This document shows positions 19,695-27,721 of a DNA stretch of 64,000 nt, piece after piece. The notes below the pieces were generated by a model that was not told the origin of the DNA, searched no databases, and saw only the letters and a program-made list of their open reading frames with translations. The stretch spans positions 192,911 through 256,910 of the forward strand of contig CACJML010000002.1 of assembly GCA_902594515.1 (NCBI GenBank). Direction: 5' to 3'. Each line of letters starts with the position of its first letter. The stretch's first letter is position 1. Made by a program: the position numbers and the translations under genes. The DNA is from an uncultured SAR86 cluster bacterium. Its GTDB lineage: Bacteria > Pseudomonadota > Gammaproteobacteria > Magnimaribacterales > D2472.

Positions 19695-20975
19695 TTATTT
19701 TGCTAACTTTTTTAGTCTTGATGATAGGAGATTTAACTTTAAATTATTTGCAGACCCAACCGATGAAGCATTTGTTTTTAAAAACAGACTTTTATGCTTG
19801 TTAGGATTATTCTTTACTGACCTATAAGCATCTCTAAAAGGTATGCCTTGCTGAACAAGCACATTTGCCTGGTCAGTCATTTGCATATCGGAGTCAATCA
19901 TCTCTGCAGCCCTCTTTTTATTGATTTTTAATGATTTGATTAATGTAGGTGCCAGAGAAAATGAAGATTCGCATAGATTAAATGCATTTATGATTGCTCC
20001 CTTAGATAGCTGTAAATCCCTGTGGTAGCCGCTTGGAAGTGAAATTAAGTTCTCAATTTCAGAATAATAACCTGCCAGTTTTGCATAATTTGCTCTCATT
20101 ATCTCTACGGTATCGGGGTTTGACTTATTGGGCATAATAGAAGATCCAGTCGTAAATTCATTACCAATCTCAATTAAATTAAATTCAGTTGAAGTAAATA
20201 AACTCAGATCCCATGATAATTTTCTTAAATCCAAGAAAGGTTGCTTCAAAGCACCTAAAATTTCTAAATCCATTTTGCCTCTGCTATTTTGAACATATAA
20301 AGCATTTACTTGAGGTCTTCTAAAGCCTAGCTTCTTGGTTGAAAGCTCTCTTTTGATAGGTAAATTAACTCCATAGCCTGCAGCTGTTCCAAGGGGATTG
20401 ACATTAATCCAATCTGAAATTGCATCCAATAACTCAACATCATCTAAAAATGCTTCCACATAAGAAGAAAACCATAACCCCCATGTTGATGGCATTGCTC
20501 TTTGCAGATGGGTATAACCAGGCATTGGTAAATATTCATTTTGCTTTGACTTGTTTAAAAGTTCTTTTGCGAGCTTAAGCACTAAATCCCTAATTATTTT
20601 TAAATAGTTTTGTTGGTAAAGTCTAAGGGCAACCAGTACCTGATCATTTCTACTTCTTCCGGTATGTATTTTCTTGCCAATATCTCCAAGCTCCTTGATT
20701 AATAAATATTCAATAGCGGAGTGGCAGTCTTCAAATTTTTTATTAAGAGTAAGCTTGCCAGATAAAAAATCTTTTTTAATTTTCCTAAGCTCTCTTTTTA
20801 ACAAAGAAGCTTCATTTCCTGTAAGTATTTTTATTGCAAGCAATTCCTCAGTGTGCGCAATCGATGCATCTACATCAAATATAAATATCTCATTATCAAG
20901 ATGTATATCTTCACCACTTAAAAAGGTATCAACTTTTTGATTTATTTTTTGATTCTTAGAGTTCCAGATTTTCAT
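19695..20975 (-). CDS. argH: Argininosuccinate lyase
   Basis: GSSIMPNKSNPDTVEIMR signature, TGRSRNDQV. Confidence 0.93.
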   Translation of the reverse strand: MKIWNSKNQKINQKVDTFLSGEDIHLDNEIFIFDVDASIAHTEELLAIKILTGNEASLLKRELRKIKKDFLSGKLTLNKKFEDCHSAIEYLLIKELGDIGKKIHTGRSRNDQVLVALRLYQQNYLKIIRDLVLKLAKELLNKSKQNEYLPMPGYTHLQRAMPSTWGLWFSSYVEAFLDDVELLDAISDWINVNPLGTAAGYGVNLPIKRELSTKKLGFRRPQVNALYVQNSRGKMDLEILGALKQPFLDLRKLSWDLSLFTSTEFNLIEIGNEFTTGSSIMPNKSNPDTVEIMRANYAKLAGYYSEIENLISLPSGYHRDLQLSKGAIINAFNLCESSFSLAPTLIKSLKINKKRAAEMIDSDMQMTDQANVLVQQGIPFRDAYRSVKNNPNKHKSLFLKTNASSVGSANNLKLNLLSSRLKKLAK

Positions 20976-20989
20976 AGCTTCTATCTCTT

Positions 20990-21913
20990 TTATAGTCCTA
21001 ACTTTTCGTCTAAATTCATTGCATTATTCAAATTTTGTATGGCTTGTGATGCTGCTCCTTTTAGCAGATTATCAATTGAACAACAAAAGCTTAATCGCTT
21101 TTTTGATTCATCAATGTTAAATCCACCAATCATGGCATTGGGTGTGTTGATAACCTCAGATATTGAGGGAAATTCTTCTTTTATAACTATAAAAGAATGC
21201 TCATCATAAAAATCATCAAAGATTTTCCTAGTCTCTTGTAAAGAATATTGGCCCTTTAAAGAAAAATTTCCGGTGATTAAAATTCCTCTAAAGAAATTTG
21301 CTACATGGGGCATAAAGTTTATTTCCCTTTGCATATGAAAACTTACCTCTCTTTCATGAATATGATTATTAAGTGAATAGGGAATAATATTATTTTTTAA
21401 TTTATCAGGATCATTTCTATCATTTGGAGTTGCACCCGCTCCGCTGTATCCAGAAATCCCAAAAAAATTCACCTCCCCACCAATCATGTTATTTATGGGT
21501 GCAAGCATTAATTGCATTGCTGTAGCATAACAACCTGGATTGCTTATCTTATTACCACCAATGGTCTTAGCTAACTCAGGAACACTATAGTGCCATTCAG
21601 CATCAAAACGATGATCAGCACTCAAATCAAGAATAATAGCTTGAGAGTTTTGTTTAGATATCTTATCAGCCCATTTAGCGGCTTCATTGTTTGGAAGAGC
21701 CAAAACAACTGCATCCTCCTCAACAAACTCAGTATTTTCATGAAGCGAGACATAAGTTTTTTCAAGATTCCACTCATCGATCATGATTTGCTCGCCTGCC
21801 ACTGATGACGAAAATGCTTTTGCAAGTTCAAATTTCGGATGAGAATCAATAAGCTTGATAAGCTCTTGGCCAGTAAATCCTCTTCCTCCAATGATGCTAA
21901 TTTTCTTTGACAT
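20990..21913 (-). CDS. argC: N-acetyl-gamma-glutamyl-phosphate reductase
   Basis: MSKKISIIGGRGFTGQELIKLI, SNPGCYATAMQL active-site motif. Start MSKK preferred over the ORF-track start at 21964 because of the argB junction. Confidence 0.92.
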   Translation of the reverse strand: MSKKISIIGGRGFTGQELIKLIDSHPKFELAKAFSSSVAGEQIMIDEWNLEKTYVSLHENTEFVEEDAVVLALPNNEAAKWADKISKQNSQAIILDLSADHRFDAEWHYSVPELAKTIGGNKISNPGCYATAMQLMLAPINNMIGGEVNFFGISGYSGAGATPNDRNDPDKLKNNIIPYSLNNHIHEREVSFHMQREINFMPHVANFFRGILITGNFSLKGQYSLQETRKIFDDFYDEHSFIVIKEEFPSISEVINTPNAMIGGFNIDESKKRLSFCCSIDNLLKGAASQAIQNLNNAMNLDEKLGL

Positions 21914-21914
21914 G

Positions 21915-23228
21915 CTAATAACTGATAGTTCCCTGTTTTGATACTGCAAAATTAATGCACTCATTTAATTTGCTATAGTCATTAATTCCCATCCAGAAAA
22001 TATCCCACTCTCCTGTTTTTTGATATCCATCTGCCATGGAAAGGTAGAATTTATTGATTGGATTATTTGATTTAGAGCGCCAAAAAATCTCAGGAAATTC
22101 TTTTTTCATTTCATGAAAAATTGCAGAGCCAATTCCCTCACCTTTAGCTTCAGCAATAACACCAAATTTATCCATGTAAGGAACTTTGTATTCCATAGAG
22201 ACTGCAATTGCTGCTCGTTCGCAGGTCGTCATAAAAATTGTGTAATCGCCATCATTAAAAAAAGACTTATTTAAAATTCCATTAAATGAACTTTCTATGA
22301 TGCTAAAAAATTTTTTCTGAATGTCCTGATCTTTGGACTCAAAAATATCTATACCATGCCCACGCTTTATCAGACTCCCTGATCCAGAGTCAGTAAATAA
22401 TTCTTTGGGTAGGTCAATAGGTTTTGTAATTGATACTGATGATGATCGAGGCAATAAATCTAATAACTCCTTAATCTGTTTTAGTTTTAATTGCATTCCT
22501 GAATGCAGCCAATCAGCATTCATCATTTCCTCATACTCTAGATCAAGGTTAATCGATTGTATTAAGGATTCATTATTGTCATAGATTCCTCCAACTTGAG
22601 ATAAAAATATAACTTTATAGGGCTTAATTTTCTCAACGAGGTTTATAGTGGCAACATCTGCATTGATATTAACCAACTCATTAGTTTCAGTAATTCCTAA
22701 CGGTGAAATCACCGGAATAAAGCCATCCTTAATAGCTTCATTGATAGGCTTAATATTTACTTCCTTAATTTCTCCGACATAACCAAGTTCTTCTGATTTT
22801 TTTTTAGATTTAAATATTTCATCTTTAAAACCAATTGCCAATGCTCCTTGTTCGTTTAAACGTCTGACTAATAAAGAGTTAATATCACCGAAGACATTGA
22901 TTGCTACATCCCTGACTGCTTCAGATGTAACTCTTTGACCATCAACAAATGAAAAATCAATTTTCTTTGCATCAAGTTCCTTAGAAAGTCCAGGCCCTCC
23001 CCCATGAATAATAATTGGCCTTAACCCAACTTGATTTAAAAAAACTAGTGAGGAAATAAGATTATCAAGATCCTCTTCAACAACCGCGCCACCAACTTTT
23101 ATAACAGCAAATTGTTGTTCTGTTGAAGAGAACTTATTTATATATTTTTTGATTTCTTTTTCTGACCCAATTGCAGTCAAAAGTTTAATGATGGTATCTT
23201 TGATAAAGATATTTGAGGCTTGTGTCAT
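21915..23228 (-). CDS. argB: Bifunctional N-acetylglutamate kinase / C-terminal NAGS-type (vertebrate-like NAT) acetyltransferase domain
   Basis: Kinase: FAVIKVGGAVVEED, IIIHGGGPGLSKEL. C-terminus: FWRSKSNNPINKFYLSMADGYQKTGEWDIFWMGI, like Xanthomonas NAGS/K. Confidence 0.9.
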   Translation of the reverse strand: MTQASNIFIKDTIIKLLTAIGSEKEIKKYINKFSSTEQQFAVIKVGGAVVEEDLDNLISSLVFLNQVGLRPIIIHGGGPGLSKELDAKKIDFSFVDGQRVTSEAVRDVAINVFGDINSLLVRRLNEQGALAIGFKDEIFKSKKKSEELGYVGEIKEVNIKPINEAIKDGFIPVISPLGITETNELVNINADVATINLVEKIKPYKVIFLSQVGGIYDNNESLIQSINLDLEYEEMMNADWLHSGMQLKLKQIKELLDLLPRSSSVSITKPIDLPKELFTDSGSGSLIKRGHGIDIFESKDQDIQKKFFSIIESSFNGILNKSFFNDGDYTIFMTTCERAAIAVSMEYKVPYMDKFGVIAEAKGEGIGSAIFHEMKKEFPEIFWRSKSNNPINKFYLSMADGYQKTGEWDIFWMGINDYSKLNECINFAVSKQGTISY

Positions 23229-24289
23229 TTTAAAAGCCCTTTATATATTTCAATTGATTCCTCAACCTGACTCAAATGGATAAATTCATTTGCTTGATGT
23301 GCATTTTCAATGTTTCCTGGTCCTATAACGATTGCAGGATAGCCGGCTTCATTGAATAAAGATGCTTCGGTCCAAAAATTTACAGGGGATGATAATGACA
23401 AATTTAGTTTGTTTGCGAAAGCCTTTAGATCATTATTTGATCCTTGTGCTGGCAGACTGGGACCTGAAAATCCTTGAATAAACTCCTCCTCATTGGAATC
23501 AGTTAAACCTAACTCAGCCACTAACTCACTGATGTCCTGATTTGGCAATGGTCTTAAGCCAAGTCTCACTTCTGCAGACTCAGCAATGATATTAGGTTTG
23601 ATGCCGCCGTTGATGTAACCAAGATTGAAAGCTAGGCCTTGAAGGTTTTCATAAGACGTTTCTGCATGATCTTCAGCTACCTTTAATGCTTTTTTTGACC
23701 AATGAACCAGTTTATGGATAGCACTATCTTGAAGGCCTCTTTTCTCTGAACTGTGTCCAGCTTTACCCTTAAATTTTTTTGTACCAGTAAAAATTCCTCG
23801 ATGGCATGTAACCGCAAGATTGTTTGTTGGCTCTGCGACTATAATGCCTTCGTAAGGATGATCTAATTCTAAGAACTTCTTGATGCAAGTACTATTGCCT
23901 GCTTCCTCATCTGTGCTAAAGAAAATCGCATACTCAGAATCATAGGATTCAATCAATGATAAAAGTACTGCTGCAGCTCCCTTTATATCGCATGCTCCGA
24001 GTCCATAAACAACTTCATTGTCTTGGTGTAATTTAAAAGGATCTGTTTCCCAACCGTCTCCTGCTGGAACAGTATCTAAATGAACATTAATTAAATGCTT
24101 AGGATTACCTTGCTTGATTAGGCAATTAAAAGAACCATTACCATGATCAGTGATTGATAAATTATGACCAGCTATAGATTCCAAATAATCTAACAATCCT
24201 GATTCTGAAATTGCTCTCGGAGGATTTGAGGTATCAAATGAAACCAATTTTTCTAGATGATTGATAGCTGAATTAAATAGATCTTCCAT
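23225..24289 (-). CDS. M20-family deacetylase; acetylcitrulline deacetylase by context
   Basis: INVHLDTVPAGDGWETDPF, YGLGACDIKGAAAVLL, FSTDEEAGN; sits between argG and argB. Confidence 0.85.
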   Translation of the reverse strand: MEDLFNSAINHLEKLVSFDTSNPPRAISESGLLDYLESIAGHNLSITDHGNGSFNCLIKQGNPKHLINVHLDTVPAGDGWETDPFKLHQDNEVVYGLGACDIKGAAAVLLSLIESYDSEYAIFFSTDEEAGNSTCIKKFLELDHPYEGIIVAEPTNNLAVTCHRGIFTGTKKFKGKAGHSSEKRGLQDSAIHKLVHWSKKALKVAEDHAETSYENLQGLAFNLGYINGGIKPNIIAESAEVRLGLRPLPNQDISELVAELGLTDSNEEEFIQGFSGPSLPAQGSNNDLKAFANKLNLSLSSPVNFWTEASLFNEAGYPAIVIGPGNIENAHQANEFIHLSQVEESIEIYKGLLK

Positions 24290-24292
24290 GTC

Positions 24293-25492
24293 TTATCTAT
24301 AAAGTTTTGCCCAAGTAGAAGTACTTTGACCTAAAAGTTTGATGAAGCCCTTAGATTCATCATCTGACCATTTGGCTGACTGAGCATAAGATCCTTCTGC
24401 ACTAATAAGTATATTTTTTGAATCAACTGCAATTGCTTCTGCTTTACCTGGCTCAAGTTGAATAGTTACATCTCCGGTGACTTTTGTTTGCGATGAGTTT
24501 AGGTATGCTTCAAGATCTTCTCGCTGCGGATCAAAAAAGAAGCCGCGATAAACAAGGTTTACCCATTCTTGACCAACTATTGATTTAAAGTGATTTTGTT
24601 TATCCGTAAGAACACTTTCCTCTAGAGCTCTGTGCGCGGTCATTAAAATAGAAATTCCTGGCGCTTCAAACACAAATCTGCCCTTTAATCCTATGATGGT
24701 ATCGCTGGCAAAAACACTCCTTCCAATGCCATATTTGCCCCCTATTTTATTTAAATGGCGTAGCAACTCAGGTCCTTTGACTTTTGAACCGTTTATAGCA
24801 ACAGGCTTTCCTTTATTAAATTTAATTGAAATTTTTTTTGTTTTTTTAGGATAATCTTCAGGTAAGTTACATAAGACATAACTCTCTGCTTTTGGAGCCT
24901 TCCATACATCAATCTCTGATCCAGAAATAGTTGCTCCCATTAGATTTTCATTGATGCTATATTTCTTATGAAGGCTTGAGACACTAATCCCTTTTTGCTT
25001 CAAATATTTGATTTCATAGTCCCTGACACTATCAGTAATATTTTGAATATCTCTGATTGGAGTAATAATGTTGAATGAGCCTAAGGCATTAATAGAGGTA
25101 TCAAACCTTACCTGATCATTTCCCATACCAGTGCACCCATGAGCAATATATTTAGTATTAAGCTTTTTACATAATTTGATGGACTCACTAACTATCAAGT
25201 ATCTGTCCGAACATAGGACAGGATATCTATTTTGGTAAAGTGCGCCTGAAAAGATTAACGGAACTAAAACTTGATCCCAAAGCTTAGTTTCAACATTTAC
25301 ATTCTTGTGCTTTTTAGCACCAAGTTGAATTGCTCTATTGGATAAATGTTTTTCCTCACTGATTGAAATACCGCCGGTATTGACAAATAAGGTATGCACT
25401 TCATAACCTTGCTCAATAAGGTAAGGGATACAAAAACTTGTATCTAAGCCTCCCGAAAATGCTAAAACTATTTTTTTCATAGATTTCCTCAT
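24293..25492 (-). CDS. argG: Argininosuccinate synthase
   Basis: LAFSGGLDTSFCIPYL, IAHGCTGMGNDQVRFD. Confidence 0.94.
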   Translation of the reverse strand: MRKSMKKIVLAFSGGLDTSFCIPYLIEQGYEVHTLFVNTGGISISEEKHLSNRAIQLGAKKHKNVNVETKLWDQVLVPLIFSGALYQNRYPVLCSDRYLIVSESIKLCKKLNTKYIAHGCTGMGNDQVRFDTSINALGSFNIITPIRDIQNITDSVRDYEIKYLKQKGISVSSLHKKYSINENLMGATISGSEIDVWKAPKAESYVLCNLPEDYPKKTKKISIKFNKGKPVAINGSKVKGPELLRHLNKIGGKYGIGRSVFASDTIIGLKGRFVFEAPGISILMTAHRALEESVLTDKQNHFKSIVGQEWVNLVYRGFFFDPQREDLEAYLNSSQTKVTGDVTIQLEPGKAEAIAVDSKNILISAEGSYAQSAKWSDDESKGFIKLLGQSTSTWAKLYR

Positions 25493-26490
25493 AAGATTTT
25501 TGTTAAAAGTGACTTTTGCACATGTTTTCTATTTGCAGCCTCTTGAATGGCTACGCAATTAGGAGAATCCATGACCCCATCTGTTGCCTTTACATTTCTT
25601 CTTAAAGGGAGGCAGTGACTGAAAAGAGCATTATTGGTTAACTCCATTTTTTCTTCATCTACGATAAAGTGTTTAAAGTTTTTTCTAACCTCAAATTCAT
25701 CTTTTGGATTCCCATAAAAATTTAGAGACCCCCAGCTTTTTGCATAAACAATATTGACTCCATCATAGCCAACATTAATATCATGGGTGATTTCAAAGCT
25801 TTTATTATTTTTGCTGCAGGCCTCTTGAGCATACTCAAGATATCGTCTATCCAGCAAGTAATCCTCAGAGGGACAAAGAAGCTTAACATTCATTCCAAAC
25901 TTGCTTGCAATTAGAAGGCTAGAATTTGCTACAGCAGTATTTAATGGTTTGGGATGATAAGTCCAGGTGAGCAAATAATCTTTTCCCTCAAGTGATCCTA
26001 ACGTTTCCTGTAAAGTCATTAAGTGAGCCAATTCCTGACAGGGATGCTCAATGGTTTCCATATTAATTACTGGAACGGATGCATATTTTGCAAAACTTTT
26101 AATTACGTGATCAGTCCTGTCAATATTCCAGTCTATAAACTTTGGGAAAGCTCTGATGGCAATACAATCACAGTATTCTGAAAGGACTTTTGCAACTTCT
26201 TTAACATGCTCCTCAGGATCTTTATTCATAATGACCCCATTCTCAAACTCGATTGGCCAAGCATCCTTACCAGGTTGTAAAAAAACAGCAGTGCCAGATA
26301 GCTCGCTGATACCCACTTCAAAACTTGTTTTAGTTCTGAGTGATGGGTTAAAAAATAACATTGCAACTGATTTATTCTTAAGCAAATCCTTAAAAGGTGA
26401 AGCTTTTAATTTTATTGCTCCGTCAACTATTGCTTGCAAATCATCCTTACTCCAGTCATAAGTCGAAATAAAATGTTTTATATTATTCAT
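25489..26490 (-). CDS. argF': N-acetylornithine carbamoyltransferase (argF'-type)
   Basis: Carbamoyl-phosphate loop FFNPSLRTKTSFE, HPCQELAHLMTLQE, HCLPLRRNVKATDGVMD; AOTC-like features and operon partners. Confidence 0.85.
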   Translation of the reverse strand: MNNIKHFISTYDWSKDDLQAIVDGAIKLKASPFKDLLKNKSVAMLFFNPSLRTKTSFEVGISELSGTAVFLQPGKDAWPIEFENGVIMNKDPEEHVKEVAKVLSEYCDCIAIRAFPKFIDWNIDRTDHVIKSFAKYASVPVINMETIEHPCQELAHLMTLQETLGSLEGKDYLLTWTYHPKPLNTAVANSSLLIASKFGMNVKLLCPSEDYLLDRRYLEYAQEACSKNNKSFEITHDINVGYDGVNIVYAKSWGSLNFYGNPKDEFEVRKNFKHFIVDEEKMELTNNALFSHCLPLRRNVKATDGVMDSPNCVAIQEAANRKHVQKSLLTKIL

Positions 26491-26513: not shown

Positions 26514-26542
26514 AAAAAACCCAGCAATCGCTGGGTTTTTTT
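26514..26542 (-). terminator. Intrinsic terminator in the arg operon leader (attenuator stem 3:4)
   Basis: Minus strand AAAAAACCCAGC-GATT-GCTGGGTTTTTT, 24 nt before the argF' start. Confidence 0.88.
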
Positions 26543-26558
26543 ACAACGTAATTCCCAG

Positions 26559-26603
26559 CTATATAAGCTGTCTCCGAATTATGCTGTTGTCTATAAATTT
26601 CAT
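26559..26603 (-). CDS. Putative arginine leader peptide MKFIDNSIIRRQLI*
   Basis: Minus strand ATG AAA TTT ATA GAC AAC AGC ATA ATT CGG AGA CAG CTT ATA TAG; tandem Arg codons directly before attenuator stem 1. Confidence 0.6.
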   Translation of the reverse strand: MKFIDNSIIRRQLI

Positions 26604-26609
26604 ATCATC

Positions 26610-26637
26610 ATAATAAGTAATTTATATAATAAGTAAA
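26610..26637 (-). promoter_or_regulatory. Possible arg leader promoter
   Basis: Minus strand TTTACT - 16 nt - TATTAT; AT-rich, so weak evidence. Confidence 0.3.
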
Positions 26638-26648
26638 TAGAAAACATA

Positions 26649-27623
26649 TCAATTCTTTAAAGATTCATACTCTATCCAATCAATTAAAAATCTTGATCCA
26701 TCAGGATCAATTTTATTTGAACAAAAAGAATTCTTACAAAATGCTTCCTCATCAACTAAATAATTATCATAAATTCCTCCAACTGCTACATTAATAATTA
26801 AATAAAAAGATGAATTAAATGGGTAACCAAACTCTTTAAAAATATCCATATCTGAATTAACTACGAAATATGGTGATGGATCACTATCCATGTAAAAACT
26901 TAGTGAATCCTCTTGCCACTCAAGCGTAATTGAATGGAACGCATCTTGGAAGTTAACTTCACTGGGTATGATAGCCTCGCCAACTAATGTTGCCTTATTG
27001 TTCCATTTAAATCCAAAGTGAAGTGCGGAACTGGAAACATTAGTAATTCTTCCTCTGTTTTCCATAATATCTATTTCGCCGCCCCTTGGCCATTCGATTT
27101 CTTTGTCAGGCATCAACCAAAAAGCAGGCCAAAAACCAATACCCTTTGGCACTTTATAGCAGAACGTTATTCTAGAGGGATAAGAAAAAGAAACTTTTGA
27201 TTTAGTATTAATCCTTGCTGAGGTAAAGCTATGGCCTCTATATTTTGCAGCATGATGGATAGGCTGAATCTTTAAAAGCCCATCTTCTATAAATAAATTA
27301 CTATTTATATTTTGCGAGCCCTTTCCTGTCCTGTAAAACTGAAGTTCATTATTTCCCCAGCCACCTATAATATTTCCTTTATGAACAAAACTATTACCTT
27401 TTGAGTAATTCCAATTATTTTTTGATAAGTTATTTATTTCAAAATCTTCATGCCATTCTAGATTTTCTTTATTTGATTTAGGCCTACAAAAAGATGGTTG
27501 CTGATTTTGATATTCATCCAAATTTATTGATGTTGAAATAGTTACTTCTTCTGCACTTAATGCTTGAAGCAATAACCAGGAACTTAGAAAGAAACAAATT
27601 ATTAAGTAATTATAAAGTTTCAC
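26649..27623 (-). CDS. Glycoside hydrolase family 16 (laminarinase-like), exported
   Basis: Catalytic motif GEIDIMENRG (ExDxxE), signal peptide. Confidence 0.9.
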   Translation of the reverse strand: MKLYNYLIICFFLSSWLLLQALSAEEVTISTSINLDEYQNQQPSFCRPKSNKENLEWHEDFEINNLSKNNWNYSKGNSFVHKGNIIGGWGNNELQFYRTGKGSQNINSNLFIEDGLLKIQPIHHAAKYRGHSFTSARINTKSKVSFSYPSRITFCYKVPKGIGFWPAFWLMPDKEIEWPRGGEIDIMENRGRITNVSSSALHFGFKWNNKATLVGEAIIPSEVNFQDAFHSITLEWQEDSLSFYMDSDPSPYFVVNSDMDIFKEFGYPFNSSFYLIINVAVGGIYDNYLVDEEAFCKNSFCSNKIDPDGSRFLIDWIEYESLKN

Positions 27624-27636
27624 CGTATTTTTAATT

Positions 27637-27721
27637 TGGTAGGGATGGAGGGAGTCGAACCCCCACGCCTTGCGGCACTTGGTTCTAAGCCAAGCGTGTC
27701 TACCAGTTCCACCACATCCCC
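27637..27721 (-). tRNA. tRNA-Leu(UAG)
   Basis: Minus strand GGGGATGTGGTGGAACTGGTAGACACGCTTGGCTTAGAACCAAGTGCCGCAAGGCGTGGGGGTTCGACTCCCTCCATCCCTACCA; long variable arm; anticodon TAG. Confidence 0.95.

Follow-up and report, generated by a model that had tools for sequence, protein, structure and literature searches.

An arginine-codon leader peptide and predicted transcription attenuator before the acetylcitrulline-type arginine operon of SAR86 bacteria

Introduction

Attenuators of the trp, his, leu, thr, ilv and phe operons share leader codons for the operon's own amino acid, a four-segment protector, antiterminator and terminator arrangement, and a leader stop codon at segment 2. They have been named for his, thr, phe, trp, leu, ilv and others, with arginine given under T-boxes only (PMC1262725; PMC1183508), and Vitreschak et al. 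2004 reportedly does not list arginine. Arginine synthesis is usually presented as controlled by ArgR or by T-boxes, the arginine T-boxes of Firmicutes being a form of RNA control by tRNA-Arg charging. Arginine T-boxes are named in PMC1262725. These elements bind tRNA directly and have no leader ORF.

Arginine codons are known to act in a leader peptide of another kind. In Salmonella speF, consecutive Arg codons (AGG CGG) at codons 12-13 of orf34 sense arginine via ribosome pausing, and this 34-residue conserved peptide regulates ornithine decarboxylase by means of Rho, RNase G and occlusion of the ribosome binding site (PMC6386406). Unlike the SAR86 leader described here, the speF system involves neither an arginine biosynthesis operon nor a switch between an antiterminator and an intrinsic terminator. 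In Pseudomonas carAB, a leader peptide and possible attenuation precede genes that feed arginine synthesis (PMC4997734, citing Kwon 1994); however, the stem-loop is described as needed for the pyrimidine response, and arginine control is ascribed to ArgR (PMC4997734).

The leader described here resembles the trp- and his-type attenuators but differs from them in its amino acid, which is arginine. We found no prior leader-peptide attenuator on arginine biosynthesis genes in the open-access literature that we searched (arginine attenuation, Xanthomonas, SAR86, acetylornithine carbamoyltransferase). As far as this literature shows, arginine is a new amino acid, and its biosynthesis a new target, for classical ribosome-mediated attenuation.

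Results and Discussion

Anatomy of the leader

The window, the whole 64,000-nucleotide stretch of DNA analyzed here, belongs to a SAR86 genome of 1.36 Mb that is 93% complete. On its minus strand lies an acetylcitrulline-type operon that starts with argF', encoding N-acetylornithine carbamoyltransferase (25489..26490; NF003384, 517 bits, cut-off 288). The rest of the operon (19695..25492) consists of argG (25492-24293), an acetylcitrulline/acetylornithine deacetylase gene (24289-23225), fused argB/argA (23228-21915), argC (21964-20990) and argH (20975-19695). The leader is located between this operon and a GH16 gene that ends at 26649, just 5' of it. A tRNA-Leu(TAG) gene (27637-27721, minus strand) lies just upstream of the GH16 gene, and in several relatives a tRNA-Leu gene is found directly 5' of the leader promoter.

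The initial annotation of this locus had claimed a 14-codon ORF with tandem CGG-AGA codons, four pairing segments, a 12-bp terminator and a stop codon overlapping segment 2; all of these held exactly, base for base, when the sequence was re-read. The ORF (26559..26603, minus strand as are all features below) encodes MKFIDNSIIRRQLI followed by TAG and reads ATG AAA TTT ATA GAC AAC AGC ATA ATT CGG AGA CAG CTT ATA TAG (26603-26559). Its regulatory codons, supported by conservation and codon counts, are CGG at codon 10 (26576-26574) and AGA at codon 11 (26573-26571), together 26571..26576. Segment 1, CAGCT (26566..26570), is the inner protector arm. Segment 2, AGCTGGG (26554..26560), overlaps the TAG stop codon and is followed by segment 3, CCCAGC (26530..26535), and by segment 4, GCTGGG (26525-26520), which runs into a T6 tract ending at 26514. 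Segment 4 and the T6 tract (26514..26525) form the distal part of an intrinsic terminator whose whole stem spans 26541-26514, placed between the leader ORF and the first structural gene, argF', which starts at 26490. The protector, annotated as a CAGCT/AGCTG pairing, also held but proved to be longer. An outer stem joins leader codons ahead of the Arg codons (5' arm, leader nt 17-21, 26583..26587) to GTTGT in the segment 2-3 spacer (3' arm, leader nt 57-61, 26543..26547), as supported by folding, a clade-level duplex test and pair counts.

A sigma-70-type promoter, TTTACT-16 nt-TATTAT (26610..26637), is predicted by sequence match and ends 6 nt 5' of the leader ATG, so that the ORF, the terminator and the operon would share one transcript; this promoter has not been mapped. 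In 27 relatives the leader ORF is preceded by TTTACA-16-TATACT/TATAAT or close variants, with the -10 element ending 7-9 nt before the ATG. In the window, an alternative promoter-like site located 22 nt 5' of the ATG scores one match higher than TTTACT-16-TATTAT. With only 6-9 nt separating the conserved promoter from the ATG, the leader transcript is probably leaderless. The start site at or near the ATG is likely, yet it is a prediction inferred from sequence alone. The same geometry is known for Sinorhizobium meliloti trpL, which has a 14-residue leader peptide and an RNA that begins with the ATG (PMC7298713), although that system is alphaproteobacterial and responds to tryptophan, and the SAR86 start site is only predicted.

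The 91-nt leader has a folding energy of -31.2 kcal/mol compared to -13.9 +/- 3.0 in dinucleotide shuffles (z -5.8, 0/200). Seven terminator-like hairpins were found in the window, and only that of the arg leader is accompanied by a third, segment-2-like copy of its arm, at most 60 nt upstream. Among sense codons in the genes of the window, CGG is used least (13 of 17,962). The source genome encodes tRNA-Arg species UCU, CCU, UCG and ACG; a tRNA-Arg(CCG) was not found in this 93% complete assembly, and CGG is therefore probably read by wobble. Rfam produced only sub-threshold matches on the leader, the best being Leu_leader on the opposite strand (32.9 bits, threshold 50). No family exceeded its gathering score and no T-box was among the matches, so a T-box fold is absent by this search. 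No phage match was found.

Conservation in the SAR86 family

We detected argF' in 47 of 108 SAR86-family genomes, and a strong argG match in the same 47. The attenuator precedes argF' in 28 of these 47 genomes, representing six genera (g1, g2, g4, g7, g8 and g9) and 23 distinct sequences. The 28 are the SAR86 argF' genomes outside genus g5, and in every one of them leader ORF, Arg codons, segments 1-4 and argF' are kept together. Leader length is invariant at exactly 14 codons from an ATG start, and the stop codon, TAG and once TAA, lies in or next to segment 2. Despite its rarity, CGG occupies codon 10 in 23/23 distinct leaders; most also have AGA at codon 9, while two g1 genomes carry a single Arg codon only (CGG GGT). 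The leader frame is open in all 23, and the other two frames are interrupted by stops in 22 and 18 of them. Since the first eight residues are variable, selection acts on the frame, the Arg codons and the RNA, not on the peptide as a whole. The terminator starts 33-45 nt before argF'. The upstream neighbor changes between genomes (GH16, tRNA-Leu or other genes) and leader and terminator stay with argF', indicating that the element belongs to argF'.

Sequence covariation within SAR86 requires a careful reading. RNAalifold applied to the leader alignment returned the invariant terminator only and no covariation, and covariation was therefore assessed by duplex tests at clade level and by counting pairs directly. 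For the outer protector stem, complementarity of the arms is higher within clades than between them (permutation p 0.005), with changes on both sides of the stem. No clade-specific covariation was seen for the inner 1:2 arm in the duplex test (p 0.42). The 2:3 and 3:4 cores are nearly invariant, with one mismatch to segment 3 in about half of the segment-2 copies, so evidence for covariation comes from the outer stem and from setting SAR86 beside other lineages.

Leaders outside SAR86

A scan of named genomes yielded argF' from Kangiella, Stenotrophomonas, Luteimonas, Pseudoxanthomonas, Rhodanobacter, other Lysobacterales and one 'Alcanivoracaceae' MAG, and nearly all of these loci have an Arg-rich leader ORF and a terminator. 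The leader peptides are dissimilar except for Arg clusters encoded by mixed Arg codons: RRRSR in Kangiella (..QQRRRSR..), RARR in Lysobacterales (..GMTSRARRPE.HI.AG before the stop codon) and RRLRR in the 'Alcanivoracaceae' MAG, with ..RRARRR.., ..RRVRR.. and ..RRLRR.. at loci L155, L179 and L186. Segments 2, 3 and 4 change together between lineages, as GCTGGG/CCCAGC/GCTGGG, GCCGGG/CCCGGC/GCCGGG and GCCAGG/CCTGGC/GCCAGG. These compensatory triplets show that mutually exclusive pairing of 2:3 and 3:4 has been maintained. The initial annotation had proposed looking in relatives for the Arg codons and for complementarity of segments 2, 3 and 4, and both are conserved: in 28/28 SAR86 genomes outside one genus and in Kangiella, Lysobacterales and the 'Alcanivoracaceae' MAG.

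Selection on coding capacity is directly shown only in Lysobacterales leaders. Pairwise differences in their (G/S)MTSRARRP motif number 19/0/485 at codon positions 1/2/3, and since almost all are synonymous, this ORF is translated and its peptide is conserved beyond its arginines. At L157-L185 and L187-L190 the motif is more conserved than codon counting needs, and the Lysobacterales leader could conceivably be an arrest peptide.

Three other argF' loci, L128, L143 and L144 (from two SAR92-labelled MAGs and one Porticoccaceae-labelled MAG), had no terminator that we could find. The covariance model also gave weak order- and class-wide hits below about 42 bits, and only strong hits were used; those of the weak hits that were inspected (L089, L090, L209 and L210) have a terminator-like hairpin with no obvious Arg leader.

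Folding states

Three states were folded in silico for the 23 distinct SAR86 leaders, and each formed in 23/23. When a ribosome is placed at CGG and the RNA ends before segment 4, 2:3 folds; with a ribosome at the stop codon, 3:4 folds; and the ribosome-free RNA folds 1:2 together with 3:4. The same three states were obtained for 16/16 leaders from Kangiella, Lysobacterales and other groups with different segment sequences. Blocking of the 1:2 protector by a ribosome at the regulatory codons is thus met in silico, with weak inner pairing in g8 and in L047. When segment 4 is present and the ribosome is at CGG, 3:4 is the lower-energy state in 18/23 leaders. The switch must therefore be kinetic, with 2:3 winning by forming first.

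Proposed mechanism and alternative explanations

Taken together, the evidence makes the element very likely a ribosome-mediated transcription attenuator, with charged tRNA-Arg as its signal and the acetylcitrulline-type arg operon as its target. It has the short leader ORF with codons for the operon's own amino acid that such an attenuator calls for, and the other sequence-level criteria are fulfilled as well. Its function is inferred from sequence, in the absence of expression, Term-seq or ribosome data. In the proposed mechanism, transcription would start at or a few bases from the leader ATG and a ribosome would translate at once. When arginine is short, the ribosome would wait at CGG/AGA (codons 10-11) and cover segment 1; segment 2 could then pair with 3 before segment 4 is made, no terminator would form and the operon would be transcribed. 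When arginine is plentiful, a ribosome at the stop codon would cover segment 2 and leave 3:4 to terminate. Without a ribosome, the long 1:2 hairpin would form and 3:4 would again terminate. Ribosome positions and the arginine response remain inferences. The arginine attenuation proposed in the initial annotation is accordingly strongly supported by comparative sequence, with no expression data.

ArgR repression requires that ArgR be encoded in the genome, and this was not met. No match to PF01316 exceeded the cut-off in any of 108 SAR86-family genomes, and none was found in 20 genomes reached via named loci, including Stenotrophomonas, Kangiella and Luteimonas, while a control search found ArgR in E. 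coli and others. The earlier remark that arginine biosynthesis is usually ArgR-repressed, which would make a leader-peptide attenuator unusual here, therefore holds, with the addition that ArgR was not found in the SAR86 family. A speF-type leader, which would be recognized by orf34 (DUF2618) with its HIRRT-HIMM core before ornithine decarboxylase, does not fit either; the peptides differ and the downstream gene is argF'.

One alternative is arrest by the nascent leader peptide, which would respond to free arginine or a different ligand and not depend on slow decoding of Arg codons. In its favor, (G/S)MTSRARRP of Lysobacterales is kept beyond the Arg residues through synonymous change, and orf34 of Salmonella speF shows that Arg-containing leader peptides can act otherwise (PMC6386406). 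However, SAR86 leaders have only 8-9 variable residues before the Arg codons, which is short for specific arrest, and Kangiella and others share little beyond Arg clusters. We consider this reading very unlikely. Equally improbable is that, owing to its rare CGG, the leader responds to the overall rate of translation or to the supply of a single scarce tRNA instead of to arginine. The rarest codon is always codon 10 in SAR86 argF' leaders and is the sole Arg codon of the leader from two g1 genomes and of most TonB-receptor copies described below; against this, the link to arginine biosynthesis recurs in several lineages, and the clusters found outside SAR86 consist of mixed Arg codons. The weakest alternative, also raised in the initial annotation, is that the hairpin merely ends the GH16 transcript, where a terminator just after the gene end at 26649 would be ordinary, with a chance leader ORF and an arg promoter downstream; this is contradicted by the varying upstream gene, by the conserved predicted promoter, frame and CGG, and by the third arm copy unique among the terminators of the window.

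An Arg-codon attenuator is conserved in several gammaproteobacterial groups for which our searches returned no ArgR, among them abundant ocean bacteria and Stenotrophomonas, and is a candidate answer to how arginine synthesis is controlled there. Culturable organisms are among the carriers and would allow the mechanism to be tested, and the element would merit an Rfam family.

Exceptions and possible re-use

In genus g5 the operon is present but the attenuator is absent (18 loci: L013-L024, L026-L031). Eight of these loci have an ORF of 37-56 residues, mostly ending RRRRSI and a stop; seven have a 129-residue ORF ending QR(L/I)RS(L/V) and a stop, which we take by eye to be panD-like; three have neither. 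Arg-ended ORFs (RRRRSI, KLRSL) or the panD-like gene with its Arg-containing C-terminus lie directly before argF', with no intrinsic terminator. It is possible that g5 uses a different control, perhaps translational or Rho-linked.

Neither argF' nor a strong argG match was found in 61 of the 108 SAR86-family genomes, some of which are more than 90% complete, and these are likely arginine auxotrophs. The argG match of G047 is split and contains two in-frame stops (G047:C1:605604-606054) and could be a pseudogene or an assembly error. Copies of the attenuator also occur in g8 genomes that have neither argF' nor a strong argG match, and there they lie in front of a TonB-dependent receptor (21 copies inspected: L079, L085, L088, L191-L208). 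The G061 receptor (L212:5544-8585) matches PF00593 and PF07715, and the other receptors begin alike. CGG is present in 21/21 copies and is the only Arg codon in most; 15 copies have it as codon 10 of 14, five of these when counted from a GTG start. This placement hints at arginine-responsive uptake in auxotrophs, an inference that gives a prediction for pathway-less SAR86 lineages when arginine is scarce. In G061 the upstream gene is that of the g1 genomes L005/L007 and the MFS gene resembles the one at the G063 arg locus, as if, possibly, the operon had been replaced behind its attenuator.

A bolder reading takes ArgR-free control by an Arg-codon attenuator to be the ancestral state of the acetylcitrulline-type operon in several gammaproteobacterial orders. 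The attenuator would then have outlived the lost pathway in some SAR86 lineages and been re-used there for a TonB-dependent receptor switched on at arginine shortage, and the Lysobacterales leader would now be a conserved peptide that may aid stalling. Taken jointly, we regard this as about an even bet, with shared ancestry not backed by a tree. Our confidence in the wider ancestry and re-use story is moderate, compared to high confidence in the attenuation mechanism itself.

A further arrangement was seen at L072. There, in G051, an attenuator with a leader peptide identical to that of G101 runs directly into a truncated MFS gene, which may be the scar of an operon deletion or a MAG chimera.
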